From contig JAVTVX010000031.1 of assembly GCA_033439265.1 (NCBI GenBank), forward strand, positions 16,040,001 through 16,104,000: a DNA stretch of 64,000 bases, in the 5' to 3' direction. A model generated the notes under the pieces. That model was not told the DNA's origin and did not search any database. It worked only from the letters and a program-made list of their open reading frames with translations. Of the stretch, positions 4,862-30,323 are shown one piece after another (the first letter of the stretch is position 1; the number at the start of each line of letters is the position of its first letter). Made by a program: the position numbers and the translations under genes. The stretch is from Dillenia suffruticosa (Eukaryota; Streptophyta; Magnoliopsida; Dilleniales; Dilleniaceae).

Positions 4862-5351
4862 AAAAAAGCAACACACAAAAAGGCAGGGATCACCCAACAG
4901 GGAGCTGCCTTACAACCTTCCTAATCTTAGCTCTACTGGTTGTATCATGCTGAAGGATTACTTCGACTTCCTCAGGAAAAGAGTCCTCGATATGCATCCT
5001 CGGCTCAACTTTAAGTTTTGAAATGAATATCCACTCAGGAGATCAAACCTAATCCCCCAAAAAAAAATCAAAATATATTAATCGAAATCCAAAAGTATAA
5101 CCAAAGTGAATTGTTGTATGAAGGGCCCCAGCTGAAGTCTCGTGAATTGAAGGACTGCCTGATGTTCTCACAAACCCTTTTTTTAATCTCGTAATTTGAA
5201 ATTTAAATTTCATATAATAATAAATAAAAAAAACTGTACCCATAAACTATAGCTTAATGGCACCATCTTTTTTCTTTTTTATGGGTCTTGAGTTCGAGCA
5301 TTTTCATCTAAAAAAAAGAATCGAAGGAGTGCAGCCCAAGTTCATTCTTAT
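4862..5351. other. Intergenic, target sequence of the next insertion
   Basis: No gene is supported. The stretch contains oligo-A runs and the left target-site copy cattcttat (5343-5351). The final 40 bp are homologous to about 2670-2700. Confidence 0.5.
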
Positions 5352-6256
5352 GGGTTATGTTCCAAAATATACCCTAAAAAAAAAAATTTTAAAAACCCGA
5401 TCAACAAACAAATTCCACATCTATACCATATTTGTCACGGATTGGACCCGCGACAGGCTATTCCACTTCTTCAAGATACGACATAGCCCAGAGGCTCCCG
5501 CGCATAGAGGGCTCCTGCGGCAGTGGGCGGCAGTAGGGGAGGGAGGGAAAGGGAGTCTCGCGCGGAGGTGGGGGGAGGGAGGGGGAGGGCTTCCGAGGCG
5601 GTGGGGGAGGGAGGGAGGGAGAGGGAGGAGTGCCACGGGGGGGAGGGGGAGAGAGAGAGGAGTGCCGCGGTGGGGGAGAGAAAGAGAGAGAGTCGCGGGG
5701 AGAGAGAGCCGCGAGCGGCGGAGGGAGTGGCTGTGGGTGGTGGGGGCAGAGAGAGAGACAGCCGCCAGCGGGTGAGGGAGGGAGGGAGGGAGAGAGAGAG
5801 ACAGCCGCGGGGGGAGAGAGAGAGCCGCGGGGGGAGGGAGAAAGAGAGAGAGCCGTGGGCCTCCACCACCCATGGCGCTGCGCACCTCCCCCGCGGCGCT
5901 ACCGTCCTCCCCCGCGGCGCTGCGCTCTCCCTCTCTCCCCCTCTATGCTGCGCTCTCCCTCCCCCTGGCGACTCTCTCTCTCTCCCTCCGTCGCCCGCGG
6001 TTCTCTCTCTCTCTCCTTCCCCCCGCGGCTCTCTTTCTTTCTCTCCACTGCCGCTGCCTTCCTATCTCTCTCCCCCTCCCCTCACGACACTCCTCCCTCT
6101 CCCTCCCTCCCCCTCCGCCGCCCGCCGCCCGTCGCCAGCCGCCCGCCGCCTGCCCCCTCCCCTCTTTCTCTCTCCCTCCCTTGGCGGACCCCCCGCCGCC
6201 CTTCCCTCTTTCTCTCCCTCCCTCCCCCCTCCGCGGCCCTCCCTTCTCTCTCTCTC
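5352..6256. mobile_element. Insertion with GA-rich left arm and CT-rich right arm
   Basis: The exact 9-bp repeat cattcttat flanks this segment (5343-5351 and 6257-6265). If the segment is removed, the flanks join to match the related sequence near 2680-2710, so it behaves as an insertion with a Mutator-size target duplication. The left end (gttccaaaatataccctaaa) resembles the end of the 6307-7335 element (gtaccaaaataacccataaa). No matching inverted repeat is seen at the right end. The interior is a strongly biased polypurine arm (about 5520-5860) followed by a polypyrimidine arm (about 5880-6256), with C+G-rich motifs such as ccgcgg. Long open frames inside are composition artefacts. Confidence 0.55.
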
Positions 6257-6306
6257 CATTCTTATTGGGCAGGGTCCTTGTCCGAAGTTGAACGAGCCAA
6301 CCCACT

Positions 6307-7335
6307 GAGACATGTACCAAAATAACCCATAAAAAAAAATTTTAAAACAATCCCAATCGAAAAAAATTTTTCCAAATAACCCGAATTTTCTGGAGTTGGA
6401 GACGCGGCATACTATGTCGCGTCTTCAACCCGCGACAAACTCCCAAGAAAGAGAGAGAGAGAGAGGAGTCCGCGGGAGGAGGGAGAGAGAGGGGGAGGGA
6501 GGAGCGTGGTGGGGGGTGGCGGGGGGAAGGAGAGAGAGGAGAGGACCGCGGCAGGCAGCGGGCGGCGGAGGGGGGAAGGAGAGAGAGAGGGGAGGGGCGC
6601 AGCGGGGTGCGGAGGGGGGAGGGAGGGAGAGAGAGAGAGGGAGGGTAGCCGGGGGGGCGAAGGGGGGAAGGAGAGAGAGAGGGGAGGGGCAAGGCGGGGT
6701 GCGGAGGGGGGAGGGAGAGAGAGAGGGAGGGCCGCCGGGGGGGGCGGAGGGCCGCGGGGGTGCGGAGGGGGGAGAGAGAGGGAGGGAGGGCCGCGGGGGG
6801 GGCGGAGGGGGGAGGAGAGCAGCTGTGTCTCTCTCCTCCCCCCTCTGCCCCCCCGCGGCCCTCCCTCTCTCTCTCTCCCTCCCCCCCTCTGCCCCCGCTG
6901 TGTCTCTCTCCTCCCCCTCCACCCCCCGCGGCCCTCCACCCCCCCCTGCGGCCCTCTCTCCCTCCCCCTCCGCCCCCGCTGTGTCTCTCTCCTCCCCCCT
7001 CCGCCCCCCCGCGGCCCTCTCTCTCTCTCTCCCTCCCTCCCCCCTCCGCACCCCGCCGCGCCCCTCCCCTCTCTCTCTCCTTCTCCCCTCCGCCGCCCGT
7101 CGCGGTCCTCCCCTCTCTCTCCTTCCCCCCGCCGCGCTCCTCCCTCCCCCTCTCTCTCCCTCCCCCCGCGGACTCCTCTCTCTCTCTCTCTCGGAAGTTT
7201 GTCACGGGTTGAAGACGCGACACAGTGTATCGCGTCTCTAACTCCCAACAAATTTGGATTATTTTGGAAAATTTTTTTTGGTTGGGGTTGTTTTAAAAAA
7301 TATTTTTTTTTATGACTTATTTTGGTACATGTCTC
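6307..7335. mobile_element. Mutator-type hairpin MITE, GA/CT-rich, 1,029 bp
   Basis: The ends are inverted repeats: gagacatgtaccaaaataac at 6307 and its complement ending at 7335. The TIRs continue about 130 bp inward through a cgcgtcttcaacccgcgaca motif and then into a GA-rich left arm and a complementary CT-rich right arm, so the whole element is close to one long palindrome. Flanks ccaacccact (6297-6306) and ccaacccatt (7336-7345) form a 10-bp near-perfect target duplication. It has no coding capacity. It ends 128 bp before the ATG of the next gene. Confidence 0.8.
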
Positions 7336-7345
7336 CCAACCCATT

Positions 7346-7462: not shown

Positions 7463-9808
7463 ATGTCGAATCAAGAAGAAATCTCCACAACTACAATGTC
7501 GAATCAAGAAGAAATCTCCACAAGTACTGATTCCAATTTAAACCCAATCATCGTTGATGAAAAATTGACCATTCAGTACATAGACCAAAAGGTCATTCCT
7601 GATTTAGTCTCTCTTCTCTCTCATCAACTCAAACCCAAAATCCTTCCTCCCAAGCCCGGTGACGAATCGGCCGCCTTCGCCGCCAATTCTCCCGCCAACG
7701 GCACTAGATCAGCGAAAAACAAAGCCAACGATTCCTCGTCGACTCCTCTCTGTGGATTCTTCATCAAATCGAATCCTCAAAATCCCAAATCAGTCAGAAA
7801 AAACGGCAACAAGATGAAGGATAGCAACATTTGTAAAAGCCCTAGTGTTGTTGTAAATGTACAAGGTCAATTGTACAGACAATTCGAGAAGTTAGAGAAA
7901 GATCTCGACGACGTCAAGGTCGCGTTCGACAAGCTCAAGACGTTCGAGGATCATGTCGGCGAGAAGATCAAGCGTCTTGTCAACCAGTGTCAAGCCATCG
8001 TCTCCAAATTCCCAAAGGGAGATGCGTCTTCTTCTCAGTCTTCGGATGAGATTGCCGCAGTTCAGAGAAAAGTCAGAGAACTCGACATGATCGTCGCAGA
8101 TTTGAAGCGCGAAATTCCACTGACCTACAAGCTTTACTCTTCCAATTCAGTTGCACATCACAATCTCCGATCGACTCATTCGAAGAGTGTGGAAATTTCG
8201 GAGGGTCGCAATGTGTTCGACAAATTGTCTAAGCTACACAACAATCCTAATTTCATCAGTAGTTCAGCTTTTAAAGATTTTAAAGCAAGGTATGACAGTT
8301 TGGACAAACTTGAGCTTAAGTTGTGTTTATTAAGTTTCTCTGTGTTTCCTGAAAATGAAATTATAAGAAGAAGAGTATTAGTGTATTGGTGGATTGGTGA
8401 GGGTTTTGCAGACCCAGAAGAGAATGAGTCTGCTGAAGAAATTGCTTGTGAATATTACCATCAATTGATGAAGAAGGGCTTTATTGAGCCTGTATATAAA
8501 AAAGGTGTATCTAACAGCTGCAGTATGCACCCATTTGTGCGTTCAGCAGTGATAGTGCTAGCGAAGAAGGCGGGTTTCTTTGATTTTGATGAAAATGGGA
8601 CGCCAACGAGGAAGTTTGTTAGGTCTCATAGGGCGTGTTTGGTTAAGCCAAGAGAAGGAAAACTGTCTGGCATGGAGTTGGAGAAGGTTTATACGGTGTT
8701 TAATTTGAATGAGGATACTATTGGTTTTGAATTGGACTGGTTTCAGAAGATGAAATATGTGAAAGTTCTTTGTCTGGGTAGGTGGAAATGCTTAGCAACG
8801 CATCATATTGAGGTTGATAAGACAGATTTCTTGAATGGTTTGAAGGGTATGAAGCATTTAAGGTATTTGAGTCTTCAAGGGGTATCGAGGATTGATGAGG
8901 TTCCCGATTCGATTTCAAAGCTCCATAATTTGAGGGTGTTGGACCTTAGAGCATGTCATAATCTAGAGGTGCTTCCGAAGGAGATTGAGGGTTTGAAGAA
9001 GTTAACCCACTTCGATTTGTCAGAGTGTTACTTGATTGATGACATGCCCAAGTGGCTTGCTTCGCTTCCAGAGTTGCAGGTCCTTAAGGGATTTGTGGTC
9101 GGTGATCCTGAGAGCAAGTACTCATGTACCATTAGCGATTTGACAAACTTGAAGTGGCTCAGAAAATTGAGTATCACCACAGGCAGGGTGGACTTCCCAG
9201 CAGAGAAAGAGCTGAATGCATTTTCTCAATTTAAGGCACTTCGCAGGTTGACAATTGCATGGGGAGGAGAATTGTCTGTTCCAAGCAATGAAAAGAAAAC
9301 AGCCACGGGTGCTGATCAAGAGAATAATGAAGGCAAAGCACAGGTAGCAGCGGACAATAAAGGGACTGGAACAAAGCAAGATGGTGGTGGAATACAGTCA
9401 GCAAAGACACCAACACAGAGAACCATATCAATAGGGTCCGCTTTAAAGCGAACAAAGACACTTACTGTATGTTCAGAACTTCCACTAGAACTAGAGAAAC
9501 TGGATCTTAGGTGCTTCCCAAAGACACCGAGTCCAACTTGGTTGATGCCCAGCAAACTGACGAAGCTGAAGAAACTCTATATCAGGGGAGGGAATCTATG
9601 TGATCTTGGTCAGTGCCAGGAAATACATCAAAGCTGGTCGGTAACGCATCTGCGATTGAAATACTTGAACGCTTTAGCAATGGATTGGGAAGAGCTTAGG
9701 GCATTGTTTCCAAACTTAAAGTACTTGGAGAAAGTAAAATGCCCCAACCTGACTTTCTTTCCTTGTGATCAGAGCGGAGTGTGGGAAAGCGCAGTACCAT
9801 CAAATTAG
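7463..9808 (+). CDS. NBS-less NLR-like protein: helical N-terminus, winged helix, LRR
   Basis: A single open frame of 781 codons starts at ATG 7463 (context acaatgt). Residues about 30-60 and 130-225 are predicted helical and coiled-coil-like (QLYRQFEKLEKDLDDVKVAF; VRELDMIVADLKREI). Residues about 275-350 match an NLR winged-helix domain (LKLCLLSFSVFPEN, RRVLVYWWIGEGFA, MKKGFIEP, MHPFVRSAVI). LRRs follow from about 455 (GMKHLRYLSLQG, LHNLRVLDLRACHNL, LPKEIEGLKKLTHFDLSEC). A charged low-complexity insert (about 610-670) splits the LRR block, which resumes LPLELEKLDLRCF. No P-loop, kinase-2 or GLPL motif is present, so nucleotide binding is absent by sequence. The first 22 codons are two copies of an 11-residue unit, each with an ATG. 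Databases usually call such proteins RPP13-like protein 4; they resemble the Arabidopsis At5g45510/45520 group as I remember it. A role in immunity is inferred. Confidence 0.88.
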   Translation: MSNQEEISTTTMSNQEEISTSTDSNLNPIIVDEKLTIQYIDQKVIPDLVSLLSHQLKPKILPPKPGDESAAFAANSPANGTRSAKNKANDSSSTPLCGFFIKSNPQNPKSVRKNGNKMKDSNICKSPSVVVNVQGQLYRQFEKLEKDLDDVKVAFDKLKTFEDHVGEKIKRLVNQCQAIVSKFPKGDASSSQSSDEIAAVQRKVRELDMIVADLKREIPLTYKLYSSNSVAHHNLRSTHSKSVEISEGRNVFDKLSKLHNNPNFISSSAFKDFKARYDSLDKLELKLCLLSFSVFPENEIIRRRVLVYWWIGEGFADPEENESAEEIACEYYHQLMKKGFIEPVYKKGVSNSCSMHPFVRSAVIVLAKKAGFFDFDENGTPTRKFVRSHRACLVKPREGKLSGMELEKVYTVFNLNEDTIGFELDWFQKMKYVKVLCLGRWKCLATHHIEVDKTDFLNGLKGMKHLRYLSLQGVSRIDEVPDSISKLHNLRVLDLRACHNLEVLPKEIEGLKKLTHFDLSECYLIDDMPKWLASLPELQVLKGFVVGDPESKYSCTISDLTNLKWLRKLSITTGRVDFPAEKELNAFSQFKALRRLTIAWGGELSVPSNEKKTATGADQENNEGKAQVAADNKGTGTKQDGGGIQSAKTPTQRTISIGSALKRTKTLTVCSELPLELEKLDLRCFPKTPSPTWLMPSKLTKLKKLYIRGGNLCDLGQCQEIHQSWSVTHLRLKYLNALAMDWEELRALFPNLKYLEKVKCPNLTFFPCDQSGVWESAVPSN

Positions 9809-11852
9809 CTGGAAGAGGTCTAAGCTTTTACTCAGTTCTCTATATTTCAGTCATCTTATTCTTGTTACCTTGTGAACTGTACGAATTGCAATATGTTTTA
9901 TCATTTTTTTTACCCCTTGTCTAGAGTTTGTCAAGGTAATGTAATGTTTCTCTTTTATCAATTTCTGAATGAACTGTATTACGGTGGGGGAAAATGATGT
10001 GTTATTCCCTCATTGGACGTGTCATGCTACAAAAGATTGTGTTCTGGAACAAATTTGTGTTCATAAATGCCTAACAGTTATAAATTTCTTACGAGTAAAT
10101 GATTTGTATCTCCAGACAGACTTACAAAAGATGACCTGGTGGAACTAAAGAGAACTTAGTGGCTGAAATGGGAGAAACAAAGTCAAGCTTACAATGTACA
10201 GGGAAGCCATCTACTCCTCAAGGGCCAACAGTAGCTGTAAGGCACTCTTCACATGGCTGAAAAAATGGAAAAAAGATTGTGTTAGGTTCTAGTTCGTGCA
10301 GGTGATTAATCTACCATTGAATTATAATTATGATATGGCATATGGTACTACAGAAGTAGCACCTGTTTGGATAATCCTACTTTTCAAGAAGCCATCAATT
10401 CACATGCCAGGAAGAAATGTCATGGTAGGACATTTGCATCAATGAGGCTCGGATGTATCAGAGTAAGTTACTGTAAGGAAGGAATTTAATATTCATTGAC
10501 CAAGTGATACATAGAACTTTCCAATCAAAGTCTTATACTCGATGAATTTAACATGGGCTAATGAGAGAACTATTTGAATTTTAGGAGTCACTGGCTCTCC
10601 TCAATCATGGAATGATGGGATCAATATGAAGATCTTGGCCACTGCTTCTCTCCATGATTTGTCTTAGCTATATCTTTTGTTGTCCAGCATTTTTTTCATG
10701 ATTGGAGAGTTATATTGATAGTCTTGAGAATTAGCAAGCTATGCATGAAGAATGGTTAAGAATCATCACTTTTCAGTATGCCACTCTAAAAAGCTGTGTA
10801 GGCAGAACCTAGTCAAAATTTTGTTTGGGCGCATTATTCTTATAGCAGAGGAGGCCTTGGGAAGTGCTAGGAATGGGCAATCGAGGAATGAGGATAATCT
10901 TCTTATATTCACAAAGGAAGAAAAGATGCCGAGGCCATTCCCATCCCTTAGCTTCCACCGCCAGCAAAGAAGGGGGCCCTGAGGATTCCGTTTGAGTGAA
11001 TAATGCTTGAGGTAATTTAAAAGGGTTCATGCTCAAGGAGCAAGTTGGATGTTTTGGAATTCTACCATTCAGAAGTAGTGTCTTTTGAGTTGTTAAATCA
11101 TTACGATTGTTATCTTCTAAGACGAGAGAGAACTGAAGGAGAAAATTTGGGACTTTTGGAGGTCTCATGCTACCACGTGATCTGGGACTTGGCCACAGGG
11201 CATGCACCTAAAATTTTAGCTCCCCTCCCCCCCCGGGCACCAAAAAAAAGACTTAATAGAATAACATTAAAACAACGAGAAAGTACAAGGGGATGCCTGG
11301 AAAAATGGAGGCCTGAATGGTCTACTTGAAGGTGTTCAGACTTCTACCATTAGATGAGTCTCCTTGGATTCGGAAAGAATCCAAGACAACTCATTTTTGC
11401 CCGAAAGTGGAAACAATGCATACTGGCATCACTTTGTAAGCATCCACAAAGGCAACATACAGTGAAGCAAATAAATTTAGGCCATACTTAAAAACATCGC
11501 GATGATGAATAATCTGGTCAAGACTTTGATACCTAGTCATCCAAAATGACAGCAATAGCACCAAATATTCTATTTGTACAGTATTCTCGGTTTCAATGAA
11601 CAATGTCTATTTGCAGCACCGCACGAGCAGCTTTATTATGGAGTTAATGAACTATGGCATAGTGACAAGTTTCCACAAATGATGCTGTTAAAGGATTTAA
11701 CACATGCAGAGAAAAAGATGGAAATCAAGGGAACTCTTCATATGTCTCTCCAGGTGCTTTGAAGGATCTGCGGGTTTCTGTCCTTGTTGTAGGTTTCAAT
11801 CAACGGCATTATTTAAAAAGGATAAAATATTTCCACAGGATGAAAAGCATTG
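9809..11852. other. Intergenic between two convergent NLR-type genes
   Basis: This is the 3' flank of both genes. It contains no recognisable coding homology; short open frames at 10752-11329 match nothing I know and have ordinary intergenic composition. Confidence 0.5.
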
Positions 11853-13046
11853 TCACTTTGCACAATTTACACTTTTTTGCTGGATCTCAGGAGTTGTAGA
11901 TTCCTCTTGAAGTTGTTCCTTCATAATTAGCCCCATCATTCGTGCAGCTAAGGGAAGGCCAGAACACTTCTCCTGAATTTCCTTTTTCACCTTTTTCATT
12001 TCTTCCTCATTTGACAGATTCGACTTTACGATATTTTCCCCCACTGAATCTCTGAATATTAACCAGCACGTTTCTGGGTCTGAACGAGGCAGAAGGCGGT
12101 GTAGGTTTTTCTCCCCAACCATCTTCTGTGCTAGTTCCTCAGACCGGCTTGTGACGATAACTGTGCCACCATGGCCTTTTGGCAACCCATATGCTAGTTT
12201 CTTTTCCCACTTTGTATTTTGCTCCAACGTAGATCCCAAATTTCCATACCAATCCTCTGTGTTCCAGGCATCATCAAGCACTATCAGATACCTTTTACCC
12301 ACCAATTGTGAGTAAAGGTTGAAGAGCAGGCCAGCAAGGGCATTCTCTTTCTCAGAGATAGATTTGATGATTTTCATTTCAACTCCGAGATATATCAGCA
12401 TTCTTTTAACAATTCCTATGCTTGTATTGTCTTCCTCGTTGGATTGCTTGGACAGGCATATCCAAATCCTCGGAAGGAAGCTATTCTTCACCTCTTTATT
12501 GTTGAAAATTACTTGCACAAGGGTGGTTTTCCCAACTCCGCCCATCCCAACAATTCCAATTGCATTGAATGGATCATGACATTGGAGCTCAACTAACGAT
12601 TTCTGCAGCAACACCACTTCGTCATCAAATCCATAAACTTTTGTTGTTAATCTCCCAGAACTCCTCCGATTATCATCTTTGTCATTTGAAGAACCAGGTT
12701 CGCCAATTTCTTGTGGACTGGTTGTGCTTCTTGAAGCAGCTTCAATGCTACTGTTACCTTGGAGCTCTTCCTTCATCTTTTTCAACCTGCTACGTATAGT
12801 GTTGTATGGAAATACTTTCTGGTAAAAATGCTTCTCTGCTGGCATCTGACACTCCGTCAGCGCGTTGTTGAGATAGAAGAGGTTGTCCCTTAGTGTTTGA
12901 AGTGCCCCTTCATTTGGGGAATCTTTTAGTTTCCTTTCAATCAAGTTCTTCAACTCCACGAAATTTTCGTAGAAGTGGACTTTCCGATTGGGTTGAAGCC
13001 CCTTGCTGAATTTGGCCAGTAGGTATTCTTCGATCTCCTTTCCCAT
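11853..13046 (-). CDS. NB-ARC protein without LRR (split-NLR type)
   Basis: The frame encodes 397 aa from ATG at 13046-13044 (MGKEIEEYLLAKF). The frame is open further upstream but has no ATG there and hits TAG, so this start is preferred. Residues 1-100 form a helical region; a Ser/Asn-rich linker follows. The NB-ARC is complete to its middle: P-loop GMGGVGKT (167-174), RNBS-A IWICLSKQ, kinase-2 KRYLIVLDDAW (near 251-261), RNBS-B GGTVIVTSR (about 293-301) and CSGLPLAA (about 361-368). The protein ends 29 residues after GLPLAA, with no winged helix, MHD or LRR. The Walker residues look intact, so ATP/ADP binding is likely. The missing modules (winged helix + LRR) are exactly what the convergent neighbour at 7463-9808 has. 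It resembles the small NB-ARC-only proteins At5g45440/At5g45490 in my memory. Cytosolic; immune function inferred. Confidence 0.9.
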   Translation of the reverse strand: MGKEIEEYLLAKFSKGLQPNRKVHFYENFVELKNLIERKLKDSPNEGALQTLRDNLFYLNNALTECQMPAEKHFYQKVFPYNTIRSRLKKMKEELQGNSSIEAASRSTTSPQEIGEPGSSNDKDDNRRSSGRLTTKVYGFDDEVVLLQKSLVELQCHDPFNAIGIVGMGGVGKTTLVQVIFNNKEVKNSFLPRIWICLSKQSNEEDNTSIGIVKRMLIYLGVEMKIIKSISEKENALAGLLFNLYSQLVGKRYLIVLDDAWNTEDWYGNLGSTLEQNTKWEKKLAYGLPKGHGGTVIVTSRSEELAQKMVGEKNLHRLLPRSDPETCWLIFRDSVGENIVKSNLSNEEEMKKVKKEIQEKCSGLPLAARMMGLIMKEQLQEESTTPEIQQKSVNCAK

Positions 13047-13912
13047 TTGAGCAACCCCAAAAGTTTCACTTCTTCCCGGCAAAGGGCATGAGAGAGGCAG
13101 ATGAATTTCCTTCTGGCTGGCCTGGGCTTGTTTTGATGTTCTATATGTTGTCTCCAAGAAAAGGGCCCAGAGCTACAATTTTTTATATTGAAATCAGACA
13201 TCGATCATGAAGAAATTTTGTTTTCTGGTAGGCAAGGAATGTGCCCACATCAGCAGCTACTTAGGGTTCCACACATCAAAAAACATGGTCTCTATAAAGA
13301 TATTTGATAAAGTTGACTGGGGTAGGTCACACCTCATTCACTGATAATTGTTTTTTCTCTTTTGTCTCTTTCCAGCAACATGCCAGCAATAATTCAGAAT
13401 CTGAACCATTATTTTTATCTTTTTTCCAGATGCATCCAAGTACATGGTCTTGAATGTCCACTTGATATTTTTTAATGTTAATTTATCATCAAATCACATC
13501 TGAACCACAGATTAGTCTGGACACGGTGATGAACCATTCATCAACGGTCCATACTTACTTGGATTTATGTGTGTCGGCCACACCTGACCCCCCCCCCGGG
13601 GGGTGGGGGTTGGATCTTACTACAGTTTGGTACTGTAAGATAGGATTAAGCTTAAGACAGAACGATGCTGATATTCATTAACACCTATTGCATTCTTTTA
13701 CTGAAAAGAGAAGGGAAGGATAGGTGCTACAGTAGTCACTTTTTTATGGTAATTTAATAAACAAGAGATGATTTGACACAATCTTAGCCTAAGATTTCTC
13801 TCATCATTTTATTTCCATGTCCAACATCTTGTCCATCCTGTTGTTTCCTTCAGTCAGTTTCTGTAACTAAGGGGGATTCTCAATTGGAGTAGGAGTAATT
13901 GAAGCCGAGAAA
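13047..13912. promoter_or_regulatory. Divergent promoter region, NB-ARC gene / DUF594 gene
   Basis: 866 bp separate the two start codons in head-to-head orientation, so the two genes may share control elements. A W-box core TTGACT, the WRKY-factor site common in defence promoters, is at 13313-13318. A C-run/G-run palindrome (ccccccccccgggggg-like) lies at about 13590-13610. No other element is convincing by eye. Confidence 0.45.
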
Positions 13913-16012
13913 ATGCAACTCCCAATTCCGGACAGGGCCAAGAAGCTATGGGACACATGGAATCTCCGGAGCTTTATCCTCATGAGTCTGACCCTCCAAG
14001 CATTTCTGATTCTCTTTGCGCCGCTTAGGAAGAGAACTTCGAACCAGATTGTACTCATGATGATCTGGTCAGCATACTTGCTTGCTGATTGGGTAGCTGC
14101 CTTTGCTGTCGGACTCATCTCCAATAGTCAAGGCAATTCTACAGGTGAAGACGTCACCGGTGATCTTCTGGCGTTTTGGGCTCCCTTTCTCTTGTTACAT
14201 CTCGGCGGCCCTGATACAATTACTGCCTTGGCTCTTGAAGATAATGAACTCTGGCTTAGGCACTTGCTTGGACTCATAGTTCAGGTTCTTGCTGCTCTTT
14301 ATGTCTTATTTCAAACGATCCCAAAAACCAAGTTTTGGATCCCAACAATGTTCATGTTTATTGCTGGGACTATCAAGTATGCTGAAAGGACGCGTGCTCT
14401 GTATCTTGCTAGCTTGGATAGTTTCCGAGACTCTATGCTTGGGGAGCCTGACCCAGGTCCCAACTATGCGAAGTTTATGGGGGTGTACTACTCAAAAAAA
14501 GTTGCCAGGCTTCCAACAAGAATAGACCAGAAGGCAGAACCTGAGAAAGCAGCCAGGATGGCAAATATTGAAGTAGTAACAGGTGGTTTAGAGGATGCGG
14601 AGGTAATACGTCATGCTTATCGTTATTTTGAGATATTTAAGGGATTGATTGTAGACCTAATTTTTAGCTTCAACGAGCGCAATGAGAGCCAACAGTTCTT
14701 CTTGAAAAGGAATGCTGCAGATGCTTTTAGAGTGGTTGAGGTTGAGCTTAACTTCATTTATGAAGTTCTGTACACAAAGATTGTTGTGGTTCACTGTTTG
14801 GTGGGCTACATTCTCAGAACAATTTGCTTTCTATCTCTTTGGGTTGCCCTCATATTCTTCTTTTTCGTATCCAAGAAAGGTCTGCACCAGATTGAGATTG
14901 GAATTACCTACACTCTGCTTCTTGTTGCCTTGGCCCTGGATACAATTGCTTTCTTCATGCTGCTTTTCTCTGACTGGACTGTTGCTTCCCTTAAGAATTC
15001 TGAAAAGAAATTTCCCATGACTACCAAACTGCTCAAGTTTCTAATTCTTAAGAAGCCAAGATGGCTTGACCAATTTCCACATCCCCAACCCAAGCATGTG
15101 AGAATGGTTGCTGTCCTGTTTCGCAGGTGGTCTGAATCTCTGTCACAGTACAACTTGATAAGTTACTGTCTGAATGAACGGCCCACAAAGGTGGATGCCG
15201 TTGTTGATTATATAGGTCTTAAGGATATTCTTGATCAAATGAAGCATGTATCCAAGATTCCGTTTACCATAGAGTTAAGGGATTTCATCTTCAATGAGCT
15301 ACATAGGAAGTCCACGATAGCAGATGATGATGCAGAACTTTCTAGGGAGATATGTTCCGCTAAAGGAGATTGGATTCTTCGCGATATTGGTTATCCTAGT
15401 CTACTCCCTTGGGTTGAAGGAGTTGAATATGATGAAAGCCTTATATTGTGGCACATTGCGACTGAACTCTGCTACTGTACAGATGAACACCCCGATAAGC
15501 CAAATGATGGGCGCAAGTTTAGCAAGATTTTCTCGGATTACATGCTTTACCTTCTGATTATGCAGCCCACAATGATGAGTGCAGTGGCAGGTATCGGGCA
15601 GATAAGATTTCGAGACACCTGTGCCGAAGCCCGGAAATTCTTTCGTAGGAGGGAGATAGTGAAGAACAAGGATTTGAAACAAACTTGCGAGAAAATTCTG
15701 GCCGTATGTACAGATGTTAGACCTTCTGCTATAAAGGGTGATAGAAGCAAATCAGTGTTTTTCGACGCGTGTATTCTAGCGAAGGAGCTGAAGCAAATGA
15801 AGGGAAAGCGGTGGGAGATTATGAGCCTTGTGTGGCTTGAAATGCTGTGCTATGCTGCAAGTCATTGCCGAGCAAATGTACATGCTCAGCAACTATGTAA
15901 AGGAGGGGAGCTTATTAGTTTGATTTGGTTATTGATGGCTCATTTTGGCTTGGGGGATCAATTTCGTATTAAAGAAGGCCATGTAAGGGCTAAACTAATT
16001 GTGGGTAAGTAA
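13913..16012 (+). CDS. DUF4220/DUF594 multi-pass membrane protein
   Basis: An intact single-exon frame of 699 aa starts MQLPIPDRAKKLWDTWNLR. The N-terminal DUF4220 region has hydrophobic segments at about 22-40, 46-66, 83-100, 118-140 and 144-160, with the family signature LLHLGGPDTITA and IKYAERTRALYLASLD. Two more membrane stretches lie at about 290-320 and 328-352. The soluble C-terminal DUF594 domain contains LILWHIATELCYC, then SDYMLYLLIMQPTMM, and the end region ELISLIWLLMAHFGLGDQF. Length is normal for the family, which is plant-specific and biochemically undefined. In Arabidopsis members are, as I recall, clustered beside NB-ARC-only and LRR genes, as here. It is divergent from the NB-ARC gene. 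Location is probably an endomembrane or the plasma membrane; function unknown. Confidence 0.92.
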   Translation: MQLPIPDRAKKLWDTWNLRSFILMSLTLQAFLILFAPLRKRTSNQIVLMMIWSAYLLADWVAAFAVGLISNSQGNSTGEDVTGDLLAFWAPFLLLHLGGPDTITALALEDNELWLRHLLGLIVQVLAALYVLFQTIPKTKFWIPTMFMFIAGTIKYAERTRALYLASLDSFRDSMLGEPDPGPNYAKFMGVYYSKKVARLPTRIDQKAEPEKAARMANIEVVTGGLEDAEVIRHAYRYFEIFKGLIVDLIFSFNERNESQQFFLKRNAADAFRVVEVELNFIYEVLYTKIVVVHCLVGYILRTICFLSLWVALIFFFFVSKKGLHQIEIGITYTLLLVALALDTIAFFMLLFSDWTVASLKNSEKKFPMTTKLLKFLILKKPRWLDQFPHPQPKHVRMVAVLFRRWSESLSQYNLISYCLNERPTKVDAVVDYIGLKDILDQMKHVSKIPFTIELRDFIFNELHRKSTIADDDAELSREICSAKGDWILRDIGYPSLLPWVEGVEYDESLILWHIATELCYCTDEHPDKPNDGRKFSKIFSDYMLYLLIMQPTMMSAVAGIGQIRFRDTCAEARKFFRRREIVKNKDLKQTCEKILAVCTDVRPSAIKGDRSKSVFFDACILAKELKQMKGKRWEIMSLVWLEMLCYAASHCRANVHAQQLCKGGELISLIWLLMAHFGLGDQFRIKEGHVRAKLIVGK

Positions 16013-21244: not shown

Positions 21245-22578
21245 TTCTTCCCCCTTTAAAGATCCAGTCCTCCGGATCGTCGCTCGTACTCAAAACGATA
21301 AAGAGACACTTTGATACATAGTTTGTGGATATTAAAGTTTATATACGGTGTTTTATGCTGGGCGGCCAGATGGGCCATTGATGTCAGCTTGTCTAATGAT
21401 AGAAGTGCTAGTTTGATTCAGCCAGATTCTTGTATTTATCCCAGGTGGCCAACAGTCACTAAATAGGGGAGACTCTGTCAGATTTTTATTTGAAAGATCA
21501 AAGAAATGGTTTCCTTTTTAGTAAATCTCCTTCCGTGTTATCACACACGGGGAGTGCGACTGTCGCGAGTCCGGACGTCGCATTTTAAATGTTACCTCTG
21601 CTATATGCAGATCTGTTCCGTTCTGTTAGGGTATGCGATGTCTGGCTAGCGGGTCGTCACAAAGTTCCGATGGGTTCTTGCTCCAATACTATACTGTTGG
21701 AATTTGTGGGGGTCTGGCAAATCCTACATTAGTTAGATCGATGGTGGATGAGCGAGGTGCATATGTATAGAGTTGCCTTAAAGTTCAATGGCTTATGCTT
21801 TGGAGTGAAATTTGATGTCTGATTTTATGTTTGTGCACAGTTCCTCACAGATGGACGCCTTAGGTTTTCGCTAGCATTGAAAGACACTTTGACATACTTT
21901 TGTAGCTTTTGAAAGCCTATAGAATGATTTGGTATGGCTTTGAATAGTTGGATGCAGGCTAGTTTGCTCAATTGGTTACCTAGCTCACTTTCCACTCTGG
22001 AAAATTGAACAAAAGGGGGAAAATTTTCTGGAAAATACACAGTCCAGCTTACCATATAGAAGCACTTGAATGAATGAACCATCTGTTAAAATCGCAATTT
22101 ATTCTGTAAGGAATAACAGTCCTAGTTTGTGGTCCTATATTTTATAAATTCTAAACTTTGTAATGAAATGCCAAAATACATATTGCATTTCCATTTGGCT
22201 CTACCAATTTTTATTCCCTAAAACATACTCCCGATTGAACTTTTCTAGAGTATACGGAAGTTAAAATTGCCTACTCTACTAATTTTTTTTTCCTACAGGA
22301 TTTTTGTACATTTTGGTGTTAAAATATGCTAATTAAAATATTGCATGGCTTGATGATGCCATGTTTTACCCACACCAGGACTCGCAGTGACCTCCAAAAT
22401 GCTACTTACTACGATGTTGTGTTTTTGGAAAGGGGAATATTTAATTTCATGGTGTGGTGTGCATTCGAGGTCAATGGACAATTCTAAGAAAATAACTTAG
22501 GCTTGTTGTTCTTAATGGTAGTTAAATATGGGAACATCTTCATTTGATGGAAATGTAACAGTTATTTGACAAGATTTA
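21245..22578. other. Intergenic, possible LTR fragment
   Basis: About 21698-21800 (tgttggaatttgtggg, tcctacattagttaga, then gagcgaggtgc) has the look of the first part of a plant LTR, but there is no partner copy in the window. The rest is unassigned DNA upstream of the NLR pseudogene. Confidence 0.3.
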
Positions 22579-25032
22579 ATGGTGCAACTTTCAGTACCGG
22601 TTATGGAGAAGATGACAGAACAACAGGAGATATACAAACCGCTTCAAGATGATGAGACATCCACAATTATTCTTGCTGGGAAAAAAGGAATAGGAAAAAC
22701 TTGGATGGCAAAACAGTTAAGAGCTCGTGCAGTCCGAGAAAACCTATTTGAAGTCATCATTTGGGTTGCTATGAATAAGAAGTATGAGAATGATCTTCTT
22801 AAAAGCATTGCCCGTCAACTGCCCTGACATCCACAACTATAGAATGGGATGGCAATGAGGATGAGGAAAACAACTTAGAAGAGCGGGAGATAGAGGAGAG
22901 CTTGGGTACTTTGAAACAGAAGCCATCTTCAATGCTTTCGAAAAGGAGGGTTCTTCTCATTATAGATGGTGTTGGAAATGACATCACGGAAGAAAACATA
23001 CGGTCAGCCTTTAATCTTCCACTGCATTCTGGCCAGAAGAAGTCACCAAAACTTTTGATCACAAGAAGAGAACCTACTGCAACTGAAGAACCTATTGCAA
23101 CTGATATTTCGACAATGAAAAGGTGTTAATGATAAAACCGCTGTCTGAAGAAGAAGCCTCCTCCTTATTGAATAAAAGGGCAGAGCAAAAGCAGATTGAT
23201 GTCACACGTATCGAATACCTCTTAAAGGCCATTGTCAAAGCTAGTCAGGGGTTGCCTGCTAAAGTTTTGATGATGGCAGAAACTATAAGATACCTTCAGC
23301 AAAGTGATTCTCAGCTGTGGGCGTTAGAGAGTGCTTTGGATGAAGCAGCTCAAGATGAACATTATAATGTAAAGCAATTGCTTTGGCATGATATGTGCTG
23401 GAATCCTGGTTGACTGCTATTGGCATGCCAGACACCTCTTGAGTGGGCGTGGTAGCATCCATTATAACGATTTAATAGTGCAGTGGATATTGGAAGGTTA
23501 TCTTGGTCATGTCAGTAGTATTGAGGAGACTTATAAGAAGGGGCACTATAATTTGATCAAACTTGTTGATCTTGGGTTGCTGAAGAAGGAGGGTAATGAT
23601 GTCATTATGGAAGGAGATTGCACAATGGATCCTCGGATTTGTGGTTTTGGTGGTACAGTAAATCTGGGGATGGCTGATGCACTCGAGGAATCACATGTTG
23701 AGTGGAATAGTTTTGGGAGAATTACACGGATTAATGGAATGATCAAATCAGTCAATGATAAAGGAGAGAAAAATGCGTCTATGTTACTAATTGATGGATA
23801 TCATCTCTCCAGGGACACTCCTGGTTCACTAGTTAAGTTCATGGAGAGGTTTGAAATTCTTGCTCTTTTCAATAGCAAACAACGAAACCTGAGGTTCTCA
23901 TTGTCTAATATGCATAACCTTCGTGCACTTGTGCTTAGAGGCTGTACTTTGTTGGAGGAGATTCTCATCCCTGTACCGATACAAGCTCCTACCCTATTAA
24001 CGGTTCTGAAGATATCTGGTGTTAAATCCCTCAAAAATGTCCCACCTGATCTTTTTCAGAAAACTCCTCAACTCCGAAGCCTTAACTTGTCTCAATGGCC
24101 AATGGAATTATTACCTTCATCAATATTTGGAAGTTTGGTAGAACTACGCTGGCTAATCCTTAGAGGATGTTCAAAGCTGAAAGAGCTTCCAAGTTTAAAG
24201 AAGTTAACTAAACTTGAGGTGATTGATCATTGTGGTTCTGCCTCATTGGAGAAACTCAAGGACGATATTTTTTCCATGCTTGAAAATCTCAAAATAATTA
24301 ATTTTTCAAGAACCAAGTTAAAACGCATACCAATTGTTAGGGGGCTTGTAAATCTTACCCATTTCATAGTAAGTAGATGTGAAACCTTAACCCGCCTGTG
24401 TAAGCTGGATTCTTTGACCAGTCTGCAGGTGCTTGATCTCTCTGGCTGCTAATTTGGTTAAACTCCCCGACAACTTCCCAAATAATGATAATCTTTGTTT
24501 CCTTGATCTATCTGGTGGTAGAATCCCTCAATTGCCCATCATTGCCAACTTTCATAGTCTTGAGTATCTTGATGTTTCCAAAGCTAAAGATTTGAATAAA
24601 TTTGATAACATCTCTTTTGAAAATTTGCCACATCTCCGGGTTCTTAACTTTTCTGAGATCCAAGTTAAAAAGCTGCCCTCAATTTCCAACCTTGGTAACC
24701 TTCGCAAGCTCTTATTAAGCAGCTGTGCTCAACTAGAAGAACTTCCTACCATGGATGGACTCACAAGACTTGAAGTGCTTGATCTCTCAGGGGGATCTAA
24801 ACTAAAAGAGATAAATGATCAACATTTAAACCTGAGAAATCTTCGTCATCTTTTGCTTCCAAATTGTTCATCCTTCCAAAAGCTGCCATGCTTGAGTGTC
24901 CCTGAAAAACTGGAGGTGCTTGATCTTTCTGGTTGTAGTTTCTTGACTGAAATTAAAGATGATTCATTTGAGCATCTCTCTTGCCTTCGAAGGCTCAGCC
25001 TCTCAAAAACTAAGGTTAAAAAGCTGCCATCT

Positions 25033-25423
25033 TGTCACAGACTTTATGATGAGTCGACTTATGTGCACTTAACAAGTCGACACTGACCAACCTGCTGATA
25101 CTTTTACTTACTTGTACAGCAATTTATCACACCCAGTTGCTGCAGATGTCTGACGAATAGCTTGAAAAAGAATTAGAGTAGAGAGGGGAAGAGAGAGAGA
25201 GAGAGAGAGAAGAAGAAGAAGAATAAGAGGGCGAGGAAGAAGGAAGCAAGAGAGAAGGATAACCAGTAAGTCTTCTTTTTCATACCCTGTTCTCTCCTGA
25301 TACAATCTATTTATACATTGTTTGATGTTCTAACCTCCTAACCACTTAACTGCATAACTGCTTTCAGTTAAAGCTAACTGACATTTGTTGTGTAACTATA
25401 CTCTATTTCCTCTTGTTGTGACA
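25033..25423 (-). repeat. 3' LTR (element on minus strand)
   Basis: 391 bp. It contains a GA/GAA tract (25193-25223) that is longer than in the other LTR. It supplies a stop codon shortly after entering the host LRR frame (TGA at 25084-25086). Confidence 0.95.
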
Positions 25424-25436
25424 ATATCTTCCCTCC
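25424..25436 (-). other. Polypurine tract
   Basis: Minus strand GGAGGGAAGATAT abuts the 3' LTR; this is the expected plus-strand priming site. Confidence 0.8.
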
Positions 25437-25451
25437 TTGAATTCCTTGTCC

Positions 25452-26720
25452 TCAAGGACTGAATTCTGGAAATTGAGAGTTGATGAAGCTGACATCCTCC
25501 CAAGTGGATTCCTCTGGACTTAAATTCAGCCATCTGATTAGCCATTGGCTAATTGGTTTATTATTCCTCTTGACCATTCTTCTTTGTAAGACTGCTTCTG
25601 GCTGAACCAAGGCCTGCCCACTAGCTCCCACCATAGGTAAATTGAGCATCAGATTTTGAGTAGGGCCTACCTTTTTCTTCAGCAATGAGACATGAAAAAC
25701 TGGATGTATTTTAGATTCAACTGGTAATTGCAACTTGTATGCTACTTGGCCTACTTTTGCCATGACCTGAAAGGGTCCATAATACTTAGAAGACAGCTTA
25801 AGTTGCTTCCTCAATTCCACTGACTGTTGCCTGTAAGGCTGTAGTTTGAGATAGACAAAATCTCCCATTTCTAACTTCCTTTCAGTCCTATTCTTGTCTA
25901 CTGCAATCTTCATTCTGTTATGAGCTTTTGCCAAGTGATCATGCAAGATTTGTAGCATTGCCTGTCTGTTGTGAACAAAATTCTCTGCAGCTGGTATAAC
26001 AGTCTCCAAATATGGTCCCATTGGGATGGATTTAGGTTGATAGTCATACAAGGCTTCAAAGGGAGTCATTCGTATGCTTGAGTGATAGTTCGTATTGTAC
26101 CACCATTTAGCTAGACTTAACCATTGATACCACTGTCCTGGTCTGTCAGAAATCGTGCATCTCAAATAGCATTCTAGACATTGGTTGAGTCTTTCACTTT
26201 GTCCATCTGTTTGTGGGTGGTATGCACTACTTAATTTCAATTGAGTTCCTACCAGCTTGAACAATTCTTGCCAAAACAAGCTGGTGAAGACCTTGTCTCG
26301 ATCTGTCACTATAGCTTCTGGAAGCCCATGCAGCTTAAACACATAGTCCACGAATACTTGAGCTACTTTCATAGCAGTGTAAGGGTGTTGTATTGCGATG
26401 AAGTGGCTAAATTTGGTGAGCTTGTCTATGACCACTAGGATAGTGTCATATCCTTGAGATTCAGGAAGTCCTTCTATGAAATCCATGCTGATTTGAGCCC
26501 ATGCTTGGGAGGGTATAGGTAGAGGTTGAAGCAATCCTGGATAGGCCACATGCTCAGACTTGTTCCTTTGGCATGTATCACATTCCTGAACATACTTAGT
26601 GACATCTGCTCTCATGGAAGGCCAATAGAATGCAGATTTGACTCTCTACAGAGTTCCCTTTTATCCTGAGTGTCCTCCTACTGCAGAGTTATGCATCTGT
26701 GTGATTATCCTGGTTCGCAG
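25452..26720 (-). pseudogene. Retrotransposon integrase with chromodomain-like tail (broken)
   Basis: The zinc-binding start (MHNSAVGGHSG) is followed by two stops, TAA at 26663-26661 and TAG at 26648-26646. The frame then stays open: YVQECDTCQRNK, catalytic core MDFIEGLP, VTDRDKVF and HPQTDGQSERLNQ (D, D, E present), GPYLETV linker, and a C-terminal region LQRRMVKRNNKPISQWLIRW then SPEESTWED typical of chromoviruses. The integrase core looks intact in sequence although not connected to the rest. Confidence 0.9.
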
Positions 26721-28449
26721 TTGGGATCCTGTCCCTACATATATCTTCTTTCTGAACTTAAGAAGTCCTCCTTGTAATGTGAACTCGGAACTGCTTTCTG
26801 GATCTAATGTTAGTTGGGCTATCATGTTCTGACAATCCTCATCTTCAACATAGCTTTGAACTACCTCTTTTATCCATTGGGGTCTCACCAGGGAGGTGGC
26901 CGTCAGCAGCCCTTCCTGTTGTTCTTCTACTAGTAACTCCTTCCTGGAGAGAGCATCAGCTGCTCGATTCTCAGAACCTTTCTTGTATTGAATCTCATAA
27001 TCCAATCCAAGGAGCTTAGTAAGCCATTTATGTTGTAGGGAATTTGTGAGCCTTTGTTCCAAGAGGTACTTCAGACTCTGATGGTCTGTTCTAATGATGA
27101 AGTGGTAGCCTATCAGGTAGTGCTTCCATTTTGTGACTGCCATAACAACAGCCATCAACTCTTTCTCGTATATAGACATTCCTTGACTCTTAACTCCAAG
27201 AGCTTTGCTTAAGTAAGCAATAGGCTGTCCTTCTTGCATTAACACAGCCCCCACCCCTTTGCACATGCATCAATCTCTAGTATAAAATGTTTGGAAAAAT
27301 CTGGCAACCTCATCACAGGTGCTGAACACATGACTGATTTAAGTTGCTGAAATGCTTGATCAGCTTCCTCATTCCATTTGAAGTTATCCTTCTTGAGCAG
27401 ATCATTGAAGGGCTTGACTAGGATTCCATAACCCTTGATGAATCTCCTGTAATAGCCCGTTAAGCCCAAGAAACCTCTCAGAGCTTTGACAGAAACTGGG
27501 GTAGGCCAATTCATGATGCAGTCGATTTTCAGTGGGTCCATTTTCACTCCTGAGTCTGTCACTATGTGTCCTAAGTACTCAACTTGAGATTGACCGAATG
27601 AGCACTTGGATAGTTTAGCATACAGCTCATGCTGTCTCAACATTAGAAGGACCTCTTGTAGATGCTGGATATGGGACTGCAAATTAGGACTGTATACTAA
27701 AATATCATAAAAAAAAACCAGCACAAATTTCCTCAGGTAGGGGCTGAAATACTTGATTCATCAGTGACTGAAAAGTAGCAGGTGCATTTGTGAGGCTGAA
27801 TGGCATTACTAGGAACTCAAAATGTCCATGGTGAGTTTGAAAGGCTGTCTTAGCTATATCCTTGGATCTGACTCTAATCTGATGGTAACCGGCTCTAAGA
27901 TCAATCTTGAAAAATAGCTTTGAACCATGTAATTCATCTAGTAATTTGTCAATGTTGGGAATGAGATACCTGTCCTTGACTATAATGTTATTAAGCTGTC
28001 TATAATCTACACAAAACCTCTAAGAGTTATCTTTCTTTTTCACCAACAGAACTGGGGAAGCAAAGGGGCTGCTACTATGTTTGACAACTCCTTGATTGAT
28101 CATATCTTGAACTTGCTTTTCTATTTCAGCCTTTTGAGAATGTGGATATCTATAAGGTGATAACTTGAAATGTTGGGCTCCATGTTTAAGAGGTATTGAA
28201 TGGTCATGGGATCTTTCTGGGGGCAGTGATGTGGGTGTAGAGAAAACATCATTGAATTGCTGCAGAAGGTCTGTAATGGACTGGTGCAGTGGAAGTTGAT
28301 GGTTTTCTGTAGATATGTTAATGTTACCACAACTATGTATTTGTTGTGTTCTAAATTTCTTAGTATTCTTCCCACGGATTAGCTTCATTTTTGGATCTTT
28401 CACCATTCCTTCTAACACCATTTCTCTTCCTTCACCTGCTAGTCTGACT
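26663..28449 (-). pseudogene. Retrotransposon reverse transcriptase and RNase H (broken)
   Basis: RT begins FKLSPYRYPHSQKAEIEKQV and continues to VLLVKKKDNS, where TAG (28022-28020) stands for the conserved Trp of the motif before [10 protein letters not shown]. An extra C at about 27739-27742 shifts the frame. The catalytic box reads [10 protein letters not shown], where plant gypsy elements have FDD, so one metal-binding Asp is Tyr. A one-base loss near 27250 breaks the frame at the RNase H start (LEIDACAKG). RNase H then continues through YLSKALG, YEKELMAVV, TDHQSLKYLL and RAADALSRK. Confidence 0.88.
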
Positions 28450-29897
28450 TGCAGCATTCTAAAATCAAAAGTTATGGGACTAAAATTGTACATCCAATCC
28501 ACACCCAATATTATATCCCATCCTCCTAAGGTAATGACCTTTAAATCAAATGAGAAGCTATACCCTTGTATGCTCCACTTAACTCCCTTGATTTTAGTGT
28601 CACTCCTTACCTTGCTCCCATCTGCTAACACTGCCTGCAGGGGTTCATCCTTTTCTGGTTCCATTTTTAGTCTCTCCATCAACATACAATTGATGAAACT
28701 ATTTGAACTCCCTGTATCTATTAGTATAGATATTATCAATCCTTGTAGTGTTCCTTGAAGGATTATAGTCTTTCTTCCTAATGAATCAGAGAGGGTACAA
28801 AGAGATACATCGAGTGCCTCACCACTGCTGTCATTTTGCTCCATTACTTCATTACTAACTAATCCATCTTCCTCCTCTGCTACTATGATTACATTCAAAT
28901 GCTTAAACTTGCACTTATGGCCAGGAGCATACTTTTCTCCACACTTAAAACACAAATTGTTAGTTCTACGATAATGTATCTCTTGTGGAGATACCTTGGG
29001 AAGTTTATTGTGATTATTGAGAGGTGTCGTAATCTTGTTCCTCCTCAATTCTTCACTATTATCCCAGTTCTTACCCATACCCATCCTCTTTTGTCTAGTT
29101 AATTCAAGAGACTGCTCCTGAAGAGATGCAATTTCAAAGGCTTGCAGTAGGGTGGTTGGTTTTAACATTCTTAAAATGGGTTTAATCTCCTCTTTAACTC
29201 CACTAATGAAACTGGAGACAAAGTAATTCTCAGTCAGTTTAGGATTTACCTGGAGCATGAGTGACCACATTTCTTCAAACCTTTCTTGGTATTCTGCCAT
29301 GGTTCCTTGCTGAAACAGCTTGTTAAATTCTTCCACAACATCTCGTACGCCTTTTCCTTCAAATCTTTGACAAAGGAGTTGGGAAAATTCTTCCCAGTTC
29401 ACTTCTTGTTTTGATGTCTTCACTCCTTGAAACCATATCTCAGCCTTACCATCCAGGTACATTTCCACCGTGTCCACCCAACTGCAGTTTGGTATTTGGT
29501 AAACTTTAAAGAACTTAAGGCATTTCCTTTACCATATTTGAGGATTGTCTCCACTGAATATGGGCAATTCAACTTTTGGTGGATTTGGTAAGTGGTTCTT
29601 TCCATTGGTTTCCTTCCTGAGTTGTGAAGTCCCAATATCACCTTTGAATCTTCCTTCAGTCGGAGTTGGGAGGATTGGAGTTTTGTTCAATTGATCTGCT
29701 TCTGAAATCTCTTCTTTATCTTTATTCATCATTTGCATTATGGTGTTGAATTTTTTTTCCATATCAAGGGCAAGAGCGTCGATTCTTGCTTCCAGCTGCC
29801 GGTACTGGGTTCCCAATTCAGATTGGACTTCTTGTATCCTTATGTCTTGTTTCTTTAGTTGTTCCTCCATAGTTTTCAATCTGGTTCCTTCCACCAT
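28450..29897 (-). pseudogene. Retrotransposon gag and protease (broken by one stop)
   Basis: Starts at ATG 29897-29895 (MVEGTRLKTMEEQLKKQD), with a coiled-coil N-terminus. An in-frame TAA at 29531-29529 interrupts it after GDNPQIW; the frame then continues unchanged (RKCLKFFKVYQIPNCSW). The gag capsid region (WEEFSQLLCQRFEG) is followed by a zinc knuckle CFKCGEKYAPGHKC and the aspartic protease motif LIDTGSSNSFIN. Coordinates of the 3' limit are approximate because protease and RT share one frame. Confidence 0.88.
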
Positions 29898-29923
29898 GGT
29901 TGTGCTTTTGCCGAGGAAGGATA

Positions 29924-29935
29924 GCTCTGATACCA
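29924..29935 (-). other. Primer binding site, tRNA-iMet
   Basis: Minus-strand TGGTATCAGAGC, complementary to the 3' end of plant initiator tRNA-Met, starts 5 bp inside the 5' LTR. Confidence 0.93.
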
Positions 29936-29940
29936 AATTT

Positions 29941-30323
29941 TGTCACAGACTTTATGATGAGTCGACTTATGTGCACTTAACAAGTCGACACTGACCAACC
30001 TGCTGATACTTTTACTTACTTGTACAGCAATTTATCACACCCAGTTGCTGCAGATGTCTGACAAATAGCTTGAAAAAAGAATTAGAGTAGAGAGGGGAAG
30101 AGAGAGAGAGAGAAGAAGAAGAATAAGAGGGCGAGGAAGAAGGAAGCAAGAGAGAATGATAACCAGTAAGTCTTCTTTTTCATACCCTGTTCTCTCCTGA
30201 TACAATCTATTTATACATTGTTTGATGTTCTAACCTCCTAACCACTTAACTGCATAACTGCTTTCAGTTAAAGCTAACTGACATTTGTTGTGTAACTATA
30301 CTCTATTTCCTCTTGTTGTGACA
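29941..30323 (-). repeat. 5' LTR (element on minus strand)
   Basis: 383 bp, followed internally on the minus strand by the primer binding site. Confidence 0.95.

Follow-up and report, generated by a model that had tools for sequence, protein, structure and literature searches.

Nucleotide-binding leucine-rich repeat receptors (NLRs) are generally regarded as single-chain switches, and in the genetically paired NLRs RPS4/RRS1, RGA4/RGA5, and Pik-1/Pik-2 each partner is a full NLR. The single-chain receptor closest to the system described here is ZAR1 (At3g50950, "RPP13-like protein 4"; PDB entries 6j5t, 6j5u, 6j5v, 6j5w, and 6j6i), a coiled-coil NLR (CNL). Three other Arabidopsis genes, At4g19060, At5g45440, and At5g45490, fall into CNL group C, which also contains ZAR1, when classified by their NB-ARC domain but join group A once the coiled coil is included (PMC6312357, excerpt). 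Here, we focused on a locus of Dillenia suffruticosa at which domains like those of a CNL, instead of forming one polypeptide, are spread over two neighboring genes. It lies in a stretch of 64,000 nucleotides (the window; positions 16,040,001 to 16,104,000, forward strand, of contig JAVTVX010000031.1 in the 596-Mb assembly GCA_033439265.1) and comprises a gene for a protein with a winged helix and leucine-rich repeats (LRR), referred to here as WH-LRR, a gene for a protein with an NB-ARC domain as its only NLR domain (NB-only), and a gene for a DUF4220/DUF594 membrane protein. We suggest, with slightly better than even confidence, that NB-only and WH-LRR are a divided ZAR1-type CNL that was split before monocots and eudicots parted and whose halves still act together in trans.

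Complementary halves of a proposed ZAR1-like receptor

A preliminary description of this DNA had named the three genes and their domain sets and had the NB-ARC protein stop soon after its GLPL motif. All three genes were recovered as open frames with the expected Pfam domains, and the NB-only protein ends 31 residues past GLPL. In WH-LRR, a predicted N-terminal helical region is followed by a WH_DRP winged helix (49.4 bits; cutoff, 27) and an LRR_14 match at residues 429 to 602 (77 bits; cutoff, 40), with no NB-ARC match to Pfam. The NB-only protein contains predicted N-terminal helices, a nucleotide-binding domain with an NB-ARC score of 120.3 bits, and most of HD1, after which it stops, and Pfam found neither a winged helix nor an LRR in it. 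Its start was taken as the first ATG, at 13046; an upstream TTG would give 434 amino acids. The two genes are convergent, lying tail to tail with a gap of 2.0 kb. Their features, in window positions, are as follows:

7463..9808, + strand: WH-LRR gene, single open frame of 781 amino acids (Pfam; 43-row family alignment A2; model; ZAR1 match)
8342..8539, + strand: winged-helix domain WH_DRP, residues 294-359 (Pfam)
8525..8533, + strand: MHD-equivalent triad, reading MHP, residues 355-357 (alignment A2)
8747..9262, + strand: N-terminal LRR block, residues 429-600 (Pfam and alignment A2)
9491..9787, + strand: C-terminal LRR block, residues 677-775 (alignment A2)
11853..13046, - strand: NB-only gene, 397 amino acids from ATG (Pfam; 46-row family alignment A1; model; ZAR1 match)
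12522..12548, - strand: P-loop GMGGVGKTT, residues 167-175 (alignment A1)
12264..12287, - strand: Walker B motif LIVLDDAW, residues 254-261 (alignment A1)
11949..11960, - strand: GLPL motif, residues 363-366 (alignment A1)

When profiles of the two families were compared with solved structures, ZAR1 was the best match of both. The NB-only profile aligned with ZAR1 from residue 5 to residue 368 (E value of 1.4e-52; next, 8.8e-24), and the WH-LRR profile aligned with residues 393 to 847 (6.8e-72; next, 2.9e-40), reaching residue 847 of the ZAR1 LRR; its LRR is of the ZAR1 type. Comparison of the predicted models also gave ZAR1 as the best match for WH-LRR, while for NB-only ZAR1 stood at the top of a tied group. 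Judged from profiles and models, the two halves are near-exact complements, in line with the domain sets of the preliminary description, and they share a common cut point and map onto one receptor type, ZAR1.

The Dillenia genome itself gave the same answer. A search with the NB-only protein, in which 104 of 242 candidates were scored, returned the protein itself (885.6 bits), a frame termed L029 (109 bits; 44% identity), and 102 others with at most 87.1 bits; there was no second close NB-only copy among those scored. L029 is an ordinary full-length ZAR1 of D. suffruticosa, located on another contig than the pair (C35:7493000-7497500; 862 amino acids). Its sequence is that of a complete CNL, with IHD at the position where the WH-LRR half has MHP, and its nucleotide-binding part is 66% identical to that of Arabidopsis ZAR1. 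In a panel of 17 NLR frames from this genome (L029 and frames from 16 other places), L029 ranked first with the NB-only profile (192.9 bits; next, 144.2) as well as with the WH-LRR profile (241.8 bits; next, 197.7); therefore, in a set wider than the solved structures, too, both halves score highest with ZAR1. By precomputed Pfam assignments, a carrier of both halves was found neither among the best 120 listed NB-only homologues nor among the best 120 of 315 WH-LRR homologues (0 of 120 each); a fused protein of about 1,000 to 1,200 amino acids would fall inside the length limits of the WH-LRR search.

In a tree that included the frames from the same genome and 21 of the 43 WH-LRR rows, the WH-LRR family is sister to ZAR1 with a support of 100/99. 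This tree superseded one with three outgroups, which was dropped since its result hinged on the root.

Linkage and conservation of the two families

Linkage was assessed on those homologues in the lists of the three families that are given with both an NCBI species name and a contig size (92, 72, and 87, each out of the best 120), where exact agreement in the number of bases was taken as a shared contig. WH-LRR and NB-only are on one contig in 19 of the 22 species common to both sets, two palms included; in the palm Phoenix, they lie together on a 651-kb scaffold. The three remaining species (Malus domestica, Prunus armeniaca, and Punica granatum) have them on differing contigs, apparently from different assemblies, and neither support nor contradict the linkage. 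For 11 of the contig-sharing species, both genes have locus tags. These are consecutive in six (Jatropha, Paulownia, Cinchona, Bertholletia, Prunus persica, and P. speciosa, the last two only if tags step by 100 and 10), no more than seven gene numbers apart in three (two Camellia species and Rhamnella), and far apart in two (Liquidambar and Vaccinium), with the caveat that tag numbers may not follow gene order in those two. On these contig data, the linkage predates the monocot-eudicot split, unless it arose twice, and the retention beyond close relatives proposed in the preliminary description holds for this pair. Six named monocot NB-only rows group together (99/97 in a tree from motif-anchored pieces; Shimodaira-Hasegawa-like approximate likelihood ratio test [SH-aLRT] of 90 in an earlier tree), as expected for an old, vertically inherited gene.

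The NB-only protein has the features of the Arabidopsis At5g45490 family (about 400 amino acids, NB-ARC, no LRR), and its model contains four N-terminal helices of at least 15 residues. The distance from GLPL to the end of the protein is 13 to 69 residues in 45 aligned homologues and does not exceed 60 in 44 of the 46 rows; since the homologues end likewise, the short C terminus is a family trait rather than a local truncation. The nucleotide site is kept throughout alignment A1: P-loop residues G167, G170, G172, and K173, Walker B D258, and the G and P of GLPL are present in 46 of 46 rows, and D259 is present in 45. The mean pairwise identity of the nucleotide-binding domain is 0.53.

In the WH-LRR family, the winged helix was matched in all 43 rows at E values up to 1. 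The LRR has a mean pairwise identity of 0.57 in its N-terminal block and 0.54 in its C-terminal block, which makes it about as conserved as the nucleotide-binding domain, the species sets of the two alignments being different. Such conservation would fit a conserved ligand or partner better than an arms race against pathogens. The insert that separates the two LRR blocks (window 9275-9460, + strand; residues 605-666) is modeled with low confidence and ranges from 12 to 166 residues in the 43 proteins. Many of the WH-LRR homologues, which lack NB-ARC, are annotated with ZAR1's own name, "disease resistance RPP13-like protein 4," and this label could mislead counts of ZAR1 orthologues.

A proposed divided receptor and its alternatives

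If the pair is a divided receptor, the part up to about ZAR1 residue 375 would be supplied by the NB-only protein, with its N-terminal helices, its nucleotide-binding domain, and the greater part of HD1. The remainder of HD1, together with the winged helix and the complete LRR (ZAR1 residues 370 to 847), would come from WH-LRR. Given that tail-to-tail genes cannot come from a new stop and start within one gene, the simplest route would start, ahead of the monocot-eudicot split, from a ZAR1-like gene that was duplicated in tandem and in inverted orientation, the two copies then undergoing complementary loss; that each gene has its own N-terminal helical region makes this route likely as well. 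The NB half would then act as the nucleotide switch, for which the WH-LRR half would provide both lid and sensor. The LRR half would hold the NB half off and use its LRR, which changes slowly, to sense a conserved partner, and on a signal it would let the NB half bind ATP and oligomerize, presumably in an immune role. Because the Asp of the MHD motif is lost in the LRR half, the usual ADP lock is probably less important for release than the association of the two proteins. As for the DUF4220/DUF594 protein, it may serve as an anchor for the pair or have a downstream role. If this is true, switch and sensor have been in separate genes since before the monocot-eudicot split, which would mean that the intramolecular lock is replaceable by assembly, and a partner could be named for the unexplained Arabidopsis NB-only genes.

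The main rival explanation is that the two are co-inherited NLR-derived neighbors that make no contact, with NB-only serving other NLRs as a regulator or adaptor and WH-LRR being a scaffold or decoy, possibly descending from different CNL ancestors. We regard this as possible, if rather unlikely, and several results weigh in its favor and against a divided receptor. Two NLR fragments can stay linked without being partners, and the matches listed include no fused homologue. The MHD motif of CNLs is degenerate in the LRR half: the equivalent positions in alignment A2 are M in 37, H in 31, and P instead of D in 39 of the 43 rows, so that gating of a nucleotide by the winged helix may have been lost. 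The wider trees of the NB domain point the same way. With the 17 frames from the same genome and 21 of the 46 family rows, NB-only forms one clade (100/100) that lies apart from ZAR1, in between the CNL groups. Holding it with ZAR1 makes this tree 6.5 log units worse (approximately unbiased [AU] test, P = 0.242). With motif-anchored pieces the cost is 0.79 log units (P = 0.465), compared with 14.9 (P = 0.117), 21.6 (P = 0.036), and 15.9 (P = 0.089) for other partners. ZAR1 is therefore the best candidate tested for the place of the NB half, neither recovered nor rejected by the wider trees. As these trees do not place the NB half with ZAR1, we can only infer a common ancestor of both halves, and our confidence in a divided receptor was lowered a little, from somewhat above even to just above even.

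Two further lines of evidence were tried and given up. An NB tree with only four CNL rows (25 of 46 family rows) had made NB-only the sister of ZAR1 with a support of 98/95 (the NRC and Sr35 alternatives having AU P values of 0.043 and 0.044), and in another early tree NB-only joined ZAR1 at an SH-aLRT of 95; both placements lost their support in the wider panel. A shared coiled-coil origin of the two N termini, considered as support for duplication and complementary loss, was unconvincing against reversed controls and is kept as a possibility only. Using hhalign with a profile of four CNL coiled-coil chains, the NB-only N terminus scored 18.9 versus 25.9 for its reversed form and that of early-branching WH-LRR scored 15.4 versus 17.8, while eudicot WH-LRR reached 21.4 versus 16.9 on the reversed coiled-coil profile, at a probability of only 6%. 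An Rx_N domain was detected in 3 of 46 NB-only rows (best E value, 0.0052) and in none of the 10 WH-LRR proteins scanned for it. What a pair of neighbors without contact leaves unexplained is the linkage in 19 of 22 species from monocots and eudicots, the near-exact fit of the halves at one cut point, and the fact that the same receptor is the best-scoring relative of both; for these reasons we prefer a divided receptor.

The preliminary description had gone further and proposed a conserved module of all three genes. The DUF4220/DUF594 gene is head to head with the NB-only gene, with 866 bp between the start codons:

13047..13912, no strand: intergenic region between the divergent NB-only and DUF4220/DUF594 start codons (open reading frames)
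13913..16012, + strand: DUF4220/DUF594 gene, single open frame of 699 amino acids (Pfam)
14066..15166, + strand: DUF4220 domain, residues 52-418 (Pfam)
15794..15952, + strand: DUF594 domain, residues 628-680 (Pfam)

Both domains exceed their curated Pfam cutoffs (365.9 bits for DUF4220 and 83.8 bits for DUF594), and hydrophobic segments lie within residues 18-69, 113-137, and 288-355. The intergenic region shows no excess of W-boxes (2 cores versus 1.94 expected). Among the matches listed, the closest proteins to the DUF4220/DUF594 protein (93%) and to NB-only (92%) come from Dillenia turbinata.

An obligate module, in which the divided receptor would have the DUF4220/DUF594 protein as its anchor or pore in the membrane, appears unlikely to us. 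The head-to-head arrangement in Dillenia speaks for it, as do consecutive tags for WH-LRR, NB-only, and DUF4220/DUF594 in Cinchona and Paulownia, in the same order as in Dillenia. All three lie within five gene numbers in Rhamnella, WH-LRR and DUF4220/DUF594 share a 14.5-kb contig in Thalictrum, and in one further source NB-only and DUF4220/DUF594 are listed with equal contigs of 8,242 bases (8.2 kb). However, among the matches listed (for DUF4220/DUF594 the best 120 of 2575, so that nearer copies may lie outside), contig sharing with this gene was seen for NB-only in no more than 9 of 26 species and for WH-LRR in 16 of 34, and all three are together in six. The tags are far apart on some large contigs (83 numbers in Aquilegia, 167 in Mikania, 310 in Liquidambar, and 420 in Arctium), and five Prunus species have their listed DUF4220/DUF594 gene on a contig whose size differs from that of the NB-only contig, in some cases perhaps from another assembly. 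Within D. suffruticosa, DUF594 copies also lie on contigs C34, C18, C4, C29, and C37; on the first three, neither an NB-only nor a WH-LRR relative was present in the 60 kb retrieved from each. Of the copies retrieved, the one on C34 (C34:9052016-9054132; L011 and L012) resembles the window gene most; it is split into several fragments, and its 60-kb surroundings as retrieved contained no remnant of NB-only or WH-LRR. The proposed module thus stands as an adjacency in Dillenia, Cinchona, and Paulownia, with a near case in Rhamnella, and not as a constant association: DUF4220/DUF594 is a frequent, not obligate, neighbor of the pair. Similarly doubtful is the fullest version of a divided receptor, a two-polypeptide resistosome and ancient relative of ZAR1 in which the switch and the ligand-sensing lid, as separate proteins, would assemble on demand, with DUF4220/DUF594 as an anchor or as a pore replacing the CNL N-terminal helix.

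That the pair is a functionless residue of ordinary NLR decay, as could be suspected from a nearby NB-LRR gene of the window that is broken and has a Gypsy-type element inserted, is highly improbable given the open frames, the kept nucleotide-site residues, and the conservation of both families across monocots and eudicots.

Surrounding cluster and comparison with known systems

Directly upstream of the WH-LRR gene, the window contains a low-complexity stretch (5257-7344) that is rich in GC and in runs of purines or pyrimidines and is open in many frames. About 6.5 kb past the DUF4220/DUF594 gene, and outside the finding of the preliminary description, lies the broken NB-LRR gene (22570-31773, + strand), with a short NB-ARC piece containing GKKGIGKTW followed by LRR pieces in several frames; the Gypsy-type element that interrupts it spans about 25452-29942 (- strand). 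We take this gene to be a possible counterpart of Arabidopsis At5g45510/At4g19050, in which case the ancestral cluster would possibly have had four parts. The At4g19050 and At5g45440-45540 blocks are presumably whole-genome-duplication copies of one locus and hence not independent recurrences.

At5g45510, which the preliminary description had named as an LRR example, is termed a "divergent NL" in the excerpted text of PMC2175511 and may therefore match the broken gene rather than the WH-LRR gene, so that this example should be treated with caution. In the same excerpt, At5g45490 and At5g45510 are among 15 genes induced after 4 h of salicylic acid, out of 162 NBS-LRR and related genes, and an excerpted table of altered membrane-fraction proteins lists At5g45510 with soluble proteins alongside (PMC5387099). 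Given the "divergent NL" assignment, the At5g45510 data in both reports may concern the broken fourth gene. For the membrane protein, a study cited in the excerpt of PMC9773991 found At5g45480 mutants to be more sensitive to osmotic stress, and one listed DUF4220/DUF594 homologue bears the name "like AT5G45480."

Compared with ZAR1, of which the two families together cover residues 5-368 and 393-847, the pair consists of two polypeptides instead of one, reads MHP where the ZAR1 type has MHD, and shows highest identities of 36 to 38% for its halves. The Arabidopsis coiled-coil-nucleotide-binding (CN) or NB-only genes At5g45490, At5g45440, and At4g19060 resemble the NB half in having NB-ARC without LRR, and many listed NB-only homologues are so named; the excerpt of PMC6312357 treats them singly and draws no LRR partner. 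Diverged ZAR1-related lineages, some of them missing motifs, are described in the excerpt of a commentary as duplicated ZAR1 genes, with no mention there of a division into two genes. No description of the two proteins as parts of a single ZAR1-like receptor was found in the open-access library searched, which did not include the main papers on ZAR1 evolution. Like the paired NLRs RPS4/RRS1, RGA4/RGA5, and Pik-1/Pik-2, the genes described here are linked, derive from NLRs, and are proposed to work jointly; in contrast to those, each of them is half an NLR.
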